From Spiribacter salinus M19-40 (GTDB taxonomy: Bacteria; Pseudomonadota; Gammaproteobacteria; Nitrococcales; Nitrococcaceae): 64,000 nt of DNA. Shown here piece after piece: positions 53,762 to 58,006 of the stretch. The translations under genes were made by a program, and so were the position numbers. The DNA is taken from NCBI RefSeq assembly GCF_000319575.2, contig NC_021291.1:806001-870000 (forward strand), written 5' to 3'. Position 1 is the stretch's first letter. Each line of letters opens with the position of its first letter. A model generated the notes under the pieces. The model had not been told where the DNA came from and ran no database searches. It saw only the letters and a list, made by a program, of their open reading frames with translations.

Positions 53762-53782
53762 ATCACCCCCATGGAGGCCAAC

Positions 53783-54379
53783 GTGAAAAGGCGCCCGTAC
53801 CGGTTTTATTTGCCCATGCTGTTGCTGTTGGGACTGGCATTGACTGGCCAGGCGCCTGCACAGGACAACTCAGACTCGCCTCAATACTACCGCGTCGAGG
53901 TCATCCTGCTAGGTCAGCCACCCATAGCCGAGACGTTTGCGGAGGCCCCCAGCGAGACGCCCCCACCACTGCCCGTTCGCTTTGCCTGGCCATTGCAGGA
54001 TCCAGGCGAAGAGGGCCTCGGGTATACACGGGTTCCCGAGTCAGAACGCGCACTGAACACTATCGCTCGGCGTCTTCGCGATCGTGAAGGGTTTACGGTC
54101 TACTGGCATACCGCTTGGGAGCAGCCAGGCCTCGATGCCGATCGGGCGCAGTCTGTTGCGCTCCCTGCCGACCTGGGCGCAGATGCCCCGCGCGGTATGC
54201 TGCGGGTCTATCGCAGTCGCTACCTGCACGCAGAAATCGAGCTGCGTGCGCCCGCTGACGACGACCGCACCTGGGTCATGTCAGATGCCCGGCGCATGCG
54301 CAGCGACGAGCGTCACTACGTCGATCACCCCGCGCTTGGTGTGATTATTGAGGTAACGGAGGTGCCAGACCCGAGATAA
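53783..54379 (+). CDS. csiV: CsiV-family periplasmic protein
   Basis: A 198-residue exported protein of the CsiV family, which in Vibrio cholerae is a periplasmic peptidoglycan-binding protein linked to cell-wall stress and D-amino acids. A signal peptide is visible (positive KRR start, hydrophobic core LPMLLLLGLALTG, likely cut after APAQ). Family segments are YYRVEVILL, LRVYRSRYLHAEIEL and RRMRSDERHYVDHPALG. I chose the GTG at 53783 because GGAGG lies 5 bp upstream; the ATG at 53771 contains that site. It follows mfd, as in Pseudomonas, and overlaps the convergent phosphorylase gene by 35 bp. Confidence 0.85.
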   Translation: MKRRPYRFYLPMLLLLGLALTGQAPAQDNSDSPQYYRVEVILLGQPPIAETFAEAPSETPPPLPVRFAWPLQDPGEEGLGYTRVPESERALNTIARRLRDREGFTVYWHTAWEQPGLDADRAQSVALPADLGADAPRGMLRVYRSRYLHAEIELRAPADDDRTWVMSDARRMRSDERHYVDHPALGVIIEVTEVPDPR

Positions 54380-55103
54380 GGGCCTGTAAAACCTGCCGGA
54401 CCGATTGAATTCCGGTCTGCAGCGTCTCGTGAATCTGCTCCATCGCAATGACTTCATCCCGCCCCACGCCGGCCGCCCAGTTCGCAACGACAGCGCAGGT
54501 CGCGTAAGGGATCTCGAGTTCCCGGGCGAGCGCCGCCTCCGGCATGCCGGTCATTCCCACCATGTCACACCCATCTCGGGCGAGGCGCTGAATCTCGGCG
54601 GCGGTCTCAAGCCGCGGTCCCTGAGTTGCCCCGTAGCAGCCCTGAGTTTGCGCATCCACGCCAGCCTCATGCGCTGCCGCAATCAGCCGGTCGCGAAGCG
54701 CTGCATCGTACGGCTGAGTAAAATCGATGTGAACGACGGCATCATGATCATCATCGTGATAGGTGCTGGCACGGCCATGGGTGTAGTCGATGATCTGGTC
54801 AGGGAAGGCCAGCCGGGCCGGGCTGAGTGCCTCATGAATCCCCCCAACGGCAGCCACCGCCATTACCTGCTTCGCACCGGCCGCCTGCATGGCCCAGATG
54901 TTGGCGCGGTAGTTCACTCGATGGGGTGGGATCGTGTGGCCATAACCGTGGCGCGCCAGGAAGATCACCGGTTGCCCGTGCAGGCGCCCGTGCGTGAGCG
55001 GCCCGGACGGTTCACCGTAGGGCGTATGCACCATCTCGCGGCGCTCGATCTCCAGGCCCTCGAGCTCCGTCAGCCCGCTTCCCCCGATGATCGCCAGCGT
55101 CAT
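54345..55103 (-). CDS. S-methyl-5'-thioinosine phosphorylase (MTAP/PNP family)
   Basis: A 252-residue trimeric purine phosphorylase. LAIIGGSGLTEL, the phosphate-site region FLARHGYGHTIPPHRVNYRANIWA and the base-site GMTGMPEA support the MTAP/MTIP group. In Pseudomonas aeruginosa the gene at the same place (beside csiV and nagZ) is methylthioinosine phosphorylase, part of polyamine by-product recycling; by position and sequence this one is probably the same. Methylthioadenosine phosphorylase is the alternative. It lies 2 bp after hpt. Confidence 0.87.
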   Translation of the reverse strand: MTLAIIGGSGLTELEGLEIERREMVHTPYGEPSGPLTHGRLHGQPVIFLARHGYGHTIPPHRVNYRANIWAMQAAGAKQVMAVAAVGGIHEALSPARLAFPDQIIDYTHGRASTYHDDDHDAVVHIDFTQPYDAALRDRLIAAAHEAGVDAQTQGCYGATQGPRLETAAEIQRLARDGCDMVGMTGMPEAALARELEIPYATCAVVANWAAGVGRDEVIAMEQIHETLQTGIQSVRQVLQALISGLAPPLPQ

Positions 55104-55105
55104 AC

Positions 55106-55681
55106 TCAGTCCTCGTCATCCGGATGCGCTGCGTAAATCGCATTCACGTTGCGCAGATAACCTTTGTAATCCATACCCACGCCGAACACATAGCGCTCGG
55201 GTACCGTTAGCCCCGCGAAGTCCGCTTTCAAGCCAGGGACTCGAGCGGGATTAGGCTTATCCGCGAGCACTGCGGTCTGAACACTCGCCGCGCCCTCCTC
55301 CTGACAGGCCTCAAGCAACCCGCGGAAGGTGTGCCCCTCATCGAGAATGTCATCCACCAGGAGCACATGCCGGCCTCTGAGGGGGGTTTGAGGGCGGGCC
55401 AGCCATACCAGCTCACGGCCGGTCGTGGTCTTGTGATACCGAGTGGCGTGGATGTAATCCACCTCGAGGGGGAAATCGAGCCGGGAGAGCAAGCGACCCA
55501 GCGGGACGATGGCGCCAGTCATCACGCCAAGCAGCAACGGACGCGTGCCACTGAGCGCCGTTGAAATCGCCTCGCCCATGCGATCGAGCGCGGCCTCAAT
55601 GGCCGGTGCATCGTGCAGACATTCCGCACGGGCCATGACACCCGCCAGCTCGGTCGCATCCAATTCAACGCCCTGTGACAT
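55106..55681 (-). CDS. hpt: Hypoxanthine-guanine phosphoribosyltransferase
   Basis: A 191-residue type I phosphoribosyltransferase that salvages hypoxanthine/guanine to IMP/GMP. The PRPP loop LLVDDILDEGHTF is clear, with LLGVMTGAIVPLGRL upstream and PERYVFGVGMDYKGYLRN at the C-terminus. ATG 55681 follows GGAG at 6 bp; an in-frame ATG at 55705 is less likely. It precedes methylthioinosine phosphorylase; together the two would convert methylthioinosine to hypoxanthine and then IMP. Confidence 0.92.
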   Translation of the reverse strand: MSQGVELDATELAGVMARAECLHDAPAIEAALDRMGEAISTALSGTRPLLLGVMTGAIVPLGRLLSRLDFPLEVDYIHATRYHKTTTGRELVWLARPQTPLRGRHVLLVDDILDEGHTFRGLLEACQEEGAASVQTAVLADKPNPARVPGLKADFAGLTVPERYVFGVGMDYKGYLRNVNAIYAAHPDDED

Positions 55682-55711
55682 CCCCGACTCCGCATGGCTG
55701 ATCAATCCACC

Positions 55712-55740
55712 AGTATAGCGACGGCGCTAGAGAGCGGCCA
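55712..55740 (-). promoter_or_regulatory. Candidate promoter for hpt and methylthioinosine phosphorylase
   Basis: On the minus strand, TATACT (55712-55717, 5 of 6) is 17 bp downstream of TGGCCG (55735-55740, 3 of 6), inside the end of nagZ. Transcription would start near 55705, about 24 nt before the hpt ATG. Confidence 0.45.
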
Positions 55741-56734
55741 GCAGCTCCCGCGCTGCTTGGTAGTCGGCGCGCGCCTGCAGCGTCGCCAGGGGTTCTCCAC
55801 CCCGCCCATGCAGCCGGGCAAGGCGCAGGCCCCGCCCGCTTGAGTGTCCGCTCACCTCGGCAAGAATGGCATCCGCCTCACGCGCTGCATTGCCCAGTAC
55901 CGCCATGTCGCAGCCCGCCTGAAGCGCCGCCTGGACGCGGGCCTGGAGACTGCCGGCCCCAGCAGCTCCCGCCATCTCGAGGTCATCACTGAAGATGCTG
56001 CCCTCAAATCTCAGCGTCTCCCGGAGATACTGGATCCAGCGCGGCGAAAACCCCGCTGGGCAGTCTTCCATGGCTGGATAAGCCACATGCGCCATCATCA
56101 CACCAGCCAGGCCGTTGTCGATCAGGCGCCGGAAGGGCAACAAATCCTGGTGTTCGAGATCCGTCACTGATCGCGGGTCACGAGCGCTCGCCTCATGGGA
56201 GTCGGGGGCCGTGCCACCATGCCCGGGAAAGTGCTTACCCACACAGGCCATCCCTGCCTCACGCGCCCCGCGCTGCCAGGCCAGACCGAGCGTGGCCACC
56301 GTCTGCGCATCGGCGCCAAGCGCCCGATCACCAATCACCTGACTGATCCCATGATCCAAATCCAGAACCGGCGCGAAGCTGAAATCGACACCCAGCGCTC
56401 GGAGCTCCATGGCCATCAGCCAACCGGCACGCTGCGCGGCCTCCTGCGCCAGGCTTGGCGCACTCGCATAGGATCGAGCCAGGCGCTCAGCCGCCGGGAG
56501 TTCGGTGAGCCCAGCTCGGAAGCGTTGAACGCGCCCACCTTCCTGGTCCACCGCAATAAGCAGGGGCGGGTTCCTGAGCCCGCGAATTACCTCGGTTAAC
56601 CCAGCGAGCTGCGCCGGGTCGCGGTAATTACGGGCGAATAACAGCACACCGCCGACCGCTGGGTGACACAGCCGTTCACGCTCCTCACCGAGCAACTCAG
56701 TGCCAGCAATCCCCAGCATCAGTGGCCCGAGCAT
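55727..56734 (-). CDS. nagZ: Beta-N-acetylglucosaminidase NagZ
   Basis: NagZ removes GlcNAc from anhydro-muropeptides in the cytoplasm during peptidoglycan recycling and so influences AmpC-type induction. The 335-residue GH3 protein has AVDQEGGRVQRF, the KHFPGHGGTAPDSH active-site loop and the catalytic nucleophile in IFSDDLEM. There is no signal peptide, as expected of a cytoplasmic enzyme. Its start overlaps the YkuD-domain gene by 16 bp; an internal ATG at 56719 would form a TGATG junction but would cut the family N-terminus. Confidence 0.94.
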   Translation of the reverse strand: MLGPLMLGIAGTELLGEERERLCHPAVGGVLLFARNYRDPAQLAGLTEVIRGLRNPPLLIAVDQEGGRVQRFRAGLTELPAAERLARSYASAPSLAQEAAQRAGWLMAMELRALGVDFSFAPVLDLDHGISQVIGDRALGADAQTVATLGLAWQRGAREAGMACVGKHFPGHGGTAPDSHEASARDPRSVTDLEHQDLLPFRRLIDNGLAGVMMAHVAYPAMEDCPAGFSPRWIQYLRETLRFEGSIFSDDLEMAGAAGAGSLQARVQAALQAGCDMAVLGNAAREADAILAEVSGHSSGRGLRLARLHGRGGEPLATLQARADYQAARELLAAL

Positions 56735-57228
56735 GATGAATCCTCACTGATCAGCACCGGCATGCCGGGATAACACTTGGGAAACAGGCTGCAGATATCG
56801 GCATTGCCCATGCGAATACAACCCGCGGAGACCGGCTCACCGAGTCGGTCCTCATCAGAGGTGCCATGGATGTAGATCAGGCGTCGCAGCGTATCGACAT
56901 CACCCCCGCGATTACGGCCGGACTCGGCCCCCGTGAGCCAGAGAATGCGGGTCAGGATCCAGTCACGACCCGGGTTAGCCGCCATCAATTCCGGGGAGCA
57001 CGTCTGACCCGTCGCACGGCGGCCGACAAAAACGGATCGCAAAGGCGCCCCCGCGCCGATGCCAAGCCGTATCCGATGCCACCCGCGCGGCGTTTGACCA
57101 CTGCCATTGCACTCACCCGCCCCTGCCGCGGCCGTGGAAACGGGCCAGGCACCCAGACAGCGCTCCGCTTTTCTTAACTCGAGGACCTGTCGGGCAATCG
57201 AGATAGACAGCCAGTGACCCTGTGACAC
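56719..57228 (-). CDS. YkuD-domain L,D-transpeptidase/carboxypeptidase, no signal peptide
   Basis: A 169-residue protein made almost wholly of one YkuD domain. The catalytic pattern is present as IHGT, then SAGCIRM with the nucleophilic Cys (the common SHGC here reads SAGC). I chose a GTG start at 57228 because AGGAG lies 7-8 bp upstream. The frame is closed by a stop 13 codons further upstream, so no signal peptide fits. The enzyme should therefore be cytoplasmic. It is coupled to nagZ, a cytoplasmic muropeptide-recycling enzyme, which suggests it trims recycled muropeptides. A cytoplasmic YkuD-type L,D-carboxypeptidase (ElsL) is known in Acinetobacter. Transpeptidase activity is less likely without export. 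Confidence 0.8.
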
Positions 57229-57307
57229 CGGGCAACTCCTGAATAAACCTGCTGCAATGATACGCTATCGGCTTTCGGCACACTGCAAGACGGGGACGGA
57301 TCGATCC

Positions 57308-58006
57308 ATGAAACGCCTGATACTGCTTCGCCATGGCCAGAGCACCTGGAATCTCGAGAACCGGTTTACCGGCTGGCATGACGTTGACCTGAGTGAGCGC
57401 GGCCGCCAGGAAGCCACTGAGGCGGGGCGATTGATGGAGAACGCTGACCTGGCACCCGAGGCGGTATTCAGCTCCGTGCTGACCCGCGCGATTCGCACCG
57501 CCTTTATGAGCCTGGATGTTCTGGATCGGCTGTGGATCCCGATGACGAAAGATTGGCGCCTGAATGAGCGCCATTACGGCGCATTGACTGGCCTAGACAA
57601 GGCTGAAACAGCCGAGCAATACGGCGATGAGCAGGTGCACGTCTGGCGACGCAGCTTTGCCACGCCGCCACCGCCACTGGACGCCGACGATCCACGCCAT
57701 CCGGTCCATGACCCTCGTTACGCGCATTTGCCCGCGGCCACATTGCCAGGCACCGAATCGCTTAAAGACACGCTGGCACGCGTTCTACCGTTTTATGAAT
57801 CGGATATTGCCCCTGCCCTAAAGCGTGTCGACACGCTGCTGATTGCAGCCCATGGCAATAGCTTGCGGGCGCTCGTCAAACACCTGGAAGGGCTATCGGA
57901 TGAGGCCATCACGGGGGTCGAAATCGCAACGGGCGATCCGCTGGTCTATGCCCTCGATGACCATCTAGCGGTAACGAGCAAGCACTCGCTGCGGGATGGA
58001 CAGTGA
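57308..58006 (+). CDS. gpmA: 2,3-bisphosphoglycerate-dependent phosphoglycerate mutase
   Basis: GpmA interconverts 3- and 2-phosphoglycerate using a phosphohistidine. The 232-residue protein has [20 protein letters not shown] with H9 of the RHG motif, the second His in [11 protein letters not shown] and [17 protein letters not shown] 57308 is the family start. Its stop overlaps the moaC GTG (GTGA). Confidence 0.95.

Follow-up and report, generated by a model that had tools for sequence, protein, structure and literature searches.

The locus examined here raises the question of which enzyme trims the peptides of recycled muropeptides in Spiribacter salinus M19-40. In the window, the whole 64,000-nucleotide stretch of DNA that was analysed, a YkuD-domain gene overlaps nagZ, and a sequence-only reading had proposed that its product replaces or supplements LdcA in the cytoplasm. 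Our analysis points to this gene being the organism's elsL, with a probability that we put at about 0.88; it would encode an ElsL-class cytoplasmic L,D-carboxypeptidase of muropeptide recycling that acts in LdcA's place. The gene and its neighbours are as follows (the start residue is numbered 1):

56719..57228, minus strand: elsL-class gene, encoding a leaderless 169-aa YkuD protein, candidate cytoplasmic L,D-carboxypeptidase with catalytic His121 and Cys137
57236..57240, minus strand: Shine-Dalgarno AGGAG of elsL, read from the sequence, with 7 nt spacing to the GTG
55727..56734, minus strand: nagZ, beta-N-acetylglucosaminidase of muropeptide recycling (NF003740, 404 bits, cut-off 207), its ATG within the 16 bp at the 3' end of elsL
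55106..55705, minus strand: hpt, hypoxanthine-guanine phosphoribosyltransferase (NF006605, 237 bits, cut-off 181), the next gene in the same direction
54345..55103, minus strand: mtnP-like S-methyl-5'-thioinosine phosphorylase gene (NF006599, 391 bits, cut-off 223), same direction
57257..58006, plus strand: gpmA-like phosphoglycerate mutase gene (NF010713, 345 bits, cut-off 305), divergent, bounding the gene cluster

According to the ORF analysis, elsL starts at a GTG codon and its product is 169 aa long. The DNA 5' of the start reads CAGGAGTTGCCCG-GTG, and an in-frame stop lies 13 codons ahead of the GTG, with 12 sense codons in between. At the other end, the nagZ ATG at 56734 precedes the end of elsL at 56719, and a GAGGA for nagZ itself lies within elsL, 6 nt ahead of that ATG. 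The window protein without its start residue (168 aa) was used for the Pfam, NCBIfam and PDB searches, the 50-sequence alignment and the structure model. Its sole Pfam domain was YkuD (58.6 bits, cut-off 23.4), and the active site with the HGT/SxGCxR motif is present. The complete active site, the GTG start with a good Shine-Dalgarno sequence, the upstream stop and the 16-bp overlap, all claimed by the sequence-only reading, were thus borne out. Homologs of like length with 46-63% identity were found in other genomes, and 28 columns, His121 and Cys137 among them, are invariant in an alignment of 50 ElsL-class sequences that includes the window protein; because of this conservation, we conclude that elsL is no chance ORF.

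The best NCBIfam match of the window protein was NF040925 ('cell wall-recycling L,D-carboxypeptidase ElsL'), with 154.3 bits over nearly the full length (profile positions 9-161 of 164), and the second-best YkuD model in this collection gave 27.9 bits. At 154 bits, the protein falls short of the curated cut-off of 270, which was passed in none of the 369 genomes of our class set; the NCBI type of NF040925 is 'exception', and the model was presumably fitted to a narrow group. Excerpts of PMC8649774 recognise ElsL orthologs by the lack of a signal peptide or transmembrane helix, a length of 105-200 aa and the lack of a peptidoglycan-binding domain. The window protein has 169 aa, YkuD alone in Pfam and a top 13-residue Kyte-Doolittle mean of 0.99 in its first 45 aa. 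Judged by these features, it is best placed in the wider ElsL class of that study, and not in NF040925 as curated. Of the 59 genomes in the relatives sample, the own genome among them, 55 had ElsL-class genes; these matched at 150-206 bits (contig-end fragments at 130 and 81), compared with at most 29.5 bits for L,D-transpeptidases.

A PDB search with the single window sequence found no relative at E 0.001, and a profile search aligned transpeptidases over no more than their active-site region, some 45 residues surrounding the motif. The structure predicted from 57 sequences had a mean pLDDT of 94.1. Its top Foldseek match was B. subtilis YkuD (E 1.3e-7, TM-score 0.57), and a second structural aligner placed it with the YkuD structures 4a1i/1y7m (Z 16.2, rmsd 1.7, 112 residues). 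The model therefore indicates a YkuD fold, and a Peptidase_S66 (LdcA) domain was not found, YkuD being the one domain in the protein. The ElsL tree, built from the window protein, 60 loci (L004-L063), 40 of 80 named loci and one outgroup, had poor resolution, with 41 of its 98 inner branches open. The window protein fell in no starred set, and the nearest row by path was L064, followed by same-genus rows. A. baumannii ElsL was represented in our comparisons by the NF040925 profile.

The residue after the motif Ser is Ala in the window protein. Among 61 aligned ElsL-class proteins this position holds His in 47, Lys in 9, Ala in 3, Arg in 1 and Ile in 1, and in a second alignment (n = 79) His in 65, Ile in 7, Lys in 3, Ala in 2 and Arg in 2. 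The proposal that Ala for His in SxGC marks an ElsL subgroup was ruled out by these counts, although the Ala itself is real.

Two further positions set the window protein apart, since it has Gln75 and Ser124 where Glu and Pro are found in all 60 of the other aligned proteins. In addition, the window copy scored 153.5 bits, less than was found in 12 of 13 further genomes of the genus (158 to 189 bits); in the remaining one, G004, elsL is split between two contig ends. Some drift is therefore possible, and a cytoplasmic ElsL-class protein that is now weak, or that acts on an altered stem peptide, would explain the low score as well as Gln75 and Ser124. We consider this unlikely, however, given that all columns invariant among the 50 sequences, the catalytic His and Cys included, are kept, that the reading frame, the Shine-Dalgarno sequence and the nagZ overlap are intact, and that no LdcA was found in the genome.

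The cytoplasmic ElsL-class reading also agrees with the N-terminus. The sequence-only reading had noted the absence of a hydrophobic leader, and the hydropathy values support this: the mean of 0.99 compares with 13-residue maxima of 1.70 and 1.88 in the genome's other two YkuD proteins, which have visible leaders (as judged by Kyte-Doolittle hydropathy, not by SignalP, Phobius or TMHMM). Three YkuD genes were found in the genome, one leaderless and two with leaders; the latter encode, in the order of the two maxima just given, proteins of 205 aa and 344 aa and lie 10-12 kb from elsL. The 344-aa protein matched the LdtE transpeptidase model with 212 bits, under the cut-off of 480. An ordinary periplasmic L,D-transpeptidase with an overlooked export signal or a wrongly assigned start would likewise have the YkuD fold and the HGT/SxGCxR motif, but it is a very improbable explanation for the window protein. 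A leader would hardly fit between the start and the stop 13 codons ahead of it, no hydrophobic stretch that could serve as an export signal was found, transpeptidase models stay below 28 bits, and the genome encodes another, LdtE-like protein that does have a leader. Moreover, the overlapping neighbour encodes NagZ, a cytoplasmic enzyme.

The 205-aa YkuD protein (L001:172-789, plus strand; near 873107-873574 of the genome) has an RR-containing leader and the motif HWTQGCIALT, and it matched no NCBIfam family at E 0.001.

Returning to the reading as an ElsL-class carboxypeptidase, we searched the genome (one contig of 1,739,487 bases) for the recycling pathway. AmpG (499 bits, cut-off 350), Mpl (583 bits, cut-off 389), AmpD (249 bits, cut-off 143) and NagZ (404 bits, cut-off 207) were all present. 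The search for ldcA that the sequence-only reading had called for gave no PF02016 match, either in the genome or in any member of the relatives sample (59 genomes); E. coli served as the positive control. The VanY family (PF02557), which may or may not reach LdcV, had no match in the genome either. Among the pathway steps looked for, L,D-carboxypeptidase alone lacks its usual gene, and the window gene is the candidate for it. Of the two possibilities proposed at the outset, that the protein replaces LdcA fits these results better, and that it supplements LdcA fits them less well. In the mechanism that we propose, AmpG would import anhydro-muropeptides into the cytoplasm, NagZ would take off the GlcNAc and AmpD would release the peptide. 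The leaderless YkuD enzyme would then cut D-Ala from the tetrapeptide, using Cys137 and His121, and Mpl would join the resulting tripeptide to UDP-MurNAc, with the ElsL-class enzyme standing in for LdcA and the nagZ overlap coupling the synthesis of two enzymes of the same pathway. For the window elsL, the cytoplasmic location, the L,D-carboxypeptidase activity and the translational coupling are what we infer; the ElsL model as best match, the lack of a leader, the lack of an LdcA match and the presence of AmpG, AmpD, NagZ and Mpl support the original proposal in its main point. The gene would close the only gap that we saw in muropeptide recycling in this streamlined, small-genomed bacterium.

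Across the class set of 369 genomes, ElsL-class matches, with E no worse than 3.3e-16, were present in 274, weak ElsL matches alone (4.5e-8 or worse) in 43 and none in 52; this split, like the per-genome absence of AmpG considered below, was counted by eye, a genome outside the listed matches being taken as without. LdcA was over the cut-off in 38 genomes. Both genes occurred in 5 genomes, ElsL alone in 269, LdcA alone in 33 and neither in 62, a pattern of avoidance with a Fisher p of 5e-17 that ignores kinship and treats as independent genomes that are not. The exchange of the two genes within families is better evidence than this test. In six families (f9, f56, f119, f139, f173 and f174) one genome had ElsL only and another had LdcA only, the pairs of f9 and f139 being weaker given that their LdcA-only genomes are 77% and 72% complete. 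The exclusion is not strict, as the 5 genomes with both genes indicate, and 62 genomes had neither. An ElsL-class gene and LdcA occur together in G100, G118, G223, G372 and G409, in which a possible division of substrates between the two enzymes could be addressed. The window gene does not represent a new class: leaderless ElsL orthologs are described as widespread and common in Gamma- and Betaproteobacteria in excerpts of PMC8649774, and part of the text of PMC8630537 states that many ElsL-bearing organisms have neither LdcA nor LdcV, so that both the wide spread and the frequent absence of LdcA beside ElsL were already published. What the exchange with LdcA inside families adds, together with the conserved nagZ neighbourhood described below, is genomic support for the published view of ElsL outside Acinetobacter.

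Several known enzymes can be set beside the window protein. Periplasmic L,D-transpeptidases as a group make 3-3 cross-links outside the membrane; they and B. subtilis YkuD have the same catalytic fold and motif as the window protein, but the profile match to the transpeptidases is limited to the motif region mentioned above. Pgp2 of C. jejuni is an L,D-carboxypeptidase, and both it and Csd6 of H. pylori are exported and act on the sacculus. These two have a YkuD fold like that of the window protein (Z 14.4 for Csd6 and 14.0 for Pgp2; 13% of the structurally aligned residues identical). For Csd6, too, L,D-carboxypeptidase activity is stated in a portion of PMC4599014. Like A. baumannii ElsL (LdtK), the window protein consists of one YkuD domain (about 165 aa) without a leader, its catalytic Cys occupies the corresponding position (C138 in A. 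baumannii, C137 here), and it is encoded in a genome where LdcA was not found and AmpG and Mpl are present. The A. baumannii enzyme is cytosolic, cuts tetrapeptides but not pentapeptides and requires Cys138, as reported in excerpts of PMC8649774 and PMC9239154. The differences are that the window protein scores 154 bits against the cut-off of 270 for the A. baumannii enzyme's family, that the motif Ser is followed by Ala and not, as usual, by His, and that activity is here predicted from sequence. The window elsL lies directly ahead of nagZ and overlaps it. E. coli LdcA (peptidase family S66) carries out the step predicted for the window protein, cytoplasmic conversion of tetrapeptide to tripeptide, and so does V. 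cholerae LdcV. The excerpted text of PMC8649774 describes LdcA as a serine peptidase with a Ser-His-Glu triad and LdcV as a zinc peptidase of the LAS superfamily; unlike LdcA, the window protein has a YkuD domain, and an S66 match is absent from the genome.

We then compared the neighbourhood of elsL in three sets of loci: relatives' loci L004-L033 (best 30 of 56 matching genomes) and class loci L034-L063 (best 30 of 317 matching genomes), each with about 1.5 kb of flank per side, and named loci L064-L143 (best 80 of 590 candidates, from an alignment weighted to the window's relatives). Flanking genes were assigned by tblastn, some of the queries being ORFs from a greedy longest-ORF scan, and the counts come from best-scoring matches and are not rates for the whole class. 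In all 30 relatives' loci (best 30 of 56), nagZ follows elsL in the same orientation, at a distance of at most 150 bp in 23 and at most 1.3 kb in the other 7; once the window is counted in, the two genes are within 150 bp in 24 of 31. In the class loci (best 30 of 317), nagZ was downstream in 8, SBP or dppB flanked elsL in 14, and 8 showed neither within their flanks. Among the named loci (best 80 of 590), nagZ was downstream in 41 (within 150 bp in 26) and SBP or dppB flanked elsL in 18, of which 6 had nagZ as well; neither was present in the covered DNA of 27. A nagZ or importer neighbourhood of elsL is thus common but not universal. The arrangement of the window, with gpm divergent, elsL-nagZ-hpt in series and csiV and mfd beyond, is the same in L120 (uncultured Spiribacter sp.) and L064 (uncultured Ectothiorhodospiraceae bacterium).

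The purine salvage genes hpt and mtnP share the direction of elsL, and the cluster is therefore not purely a recycling operon; still, it is most improbable that the enzyme trims some other cytoplasmic D-amino-acid peptide and adjoins nagZ for other reasons, in view of the close nagZ in 23 of the 30 relatives' loci (best 30 of 56), the position of elsL between an oligopeptide-binding protein and peptide permeases in other lineages, and the reciprocal pattern with LdcA, which points to the same substrate. As for an enzyme of muropeptide recycling encoded beside nagZ, neither the elsL-nagZ pair nor an elsL importer operon appeared in the titles and abstract starts searched (supplements, subscription papers and bioRxiv being outside the scope). 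The name nagZ is absent from the main text of PMC8649774, and the review PMC13204101, the only paper with all of ElsL, nagZ and operon in it, draws no connection among them in its excerpted text. The conserved elsL-nagZ pair and the SBP-elsL-dppB-dppC operons were thus not seen in the papers searched, which is not proof of their absence from print. In L004, an ORF between elsL and nagZ (L004:516-1331) has weak primase and Pox_D5 matches only and may be spurious.

Beyond the window's closest relatives, gammaproteobacterial elsL genes often lie in an operon for a peptide ABC importer, SBP-elsL-dppB-dppC (for example L043), which nagZ and hpt sometimes follow. The order SBP-elsL-dppB-dppC-nagZ was observed in L099, L117, L084, L072 and L108; in the first three, rlmD and CYTH lie ahead of this series and hpt follows it. 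The SBP gene overlaps the elsL start by 17 bp in L084 and by 26 bp in L099. A family search identified four example flanking proteins as SBP_bac_5 binding proteins and BPD_transp_1 permeases, and the remaining importer flanks were assigned by tblastn with these four and two more of the same kind. We call importer-type those loci with SBP upstream or dppB downstream of elsL on the same strand. A one-frame motif scan for an ABC ATPase (Walker A plus signature), run with no positive control, found none in the 32 importer-type loci, 14 of which are class loci spanning only about 1.5 kb or less per side.

AmpG was absent in 8 of the 14 importer-type class genomes (two of them 84-85% complete) and in 77 of the 355 others (p 0.005, kinship ignored). 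In the class set, all 8 nagZ-type genomes had AmpG, as did the other 6 importer-type ones; where the class loci had neither neighbour, 3 of 8 genomes were without AmpG, all three from one family. The importer-type genomes without AmpG are those of L036, L039, L042, L047, L048, L050, L056, L058 and L084. Of the 18 named importer-type genomes, 8 were checked for AmpG, which was over the cut-off in five, under it in one (270 bits), at 19 bits in one and not found in one. Among the rows of the ElsL tree, 10 of 21 importer-type rows lacked AmpG versus 1 of 39 nagZ-only rows, which reduces to 1 independent pair on well-supported branches and 8 on all branches. Agrobacterium uses the ABC importer YejBEF-YepA in place of AmpG according to excerpts of PMC9790009, and the review PMC13204101 names, in the part cited here, the ABC system OppBCDF-MppA for the uptake of short peptidoglycan peptides. 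A tentative explanation, which we regard as possible but rather doubtful, is that an older murein-recycling operon of Gammaproteobacteria had the order (rlmD)-CYTH-SBP-elsL-dppB-dppC-nagZ-hpt-mtnP. SBP-DppBC might then import murein peptides or muropeptides where AmpG is absent, with ElsL trimming them, and the elsL-nagZ-hpt-mtnP series of the window might be a remnant where AmpG imports. The importer operon makes testable how AmpG-less Gammaproteobacteria import murein fragments.

At the far end of the window cluster, a gene of the CsiV family (53771-54379, plus strand; Pfam peptidoglycan-binding protein CsiV, 92.7 bits) lies tail-to-tail with the mtnP-like gene, with an overlap of 35 bp.
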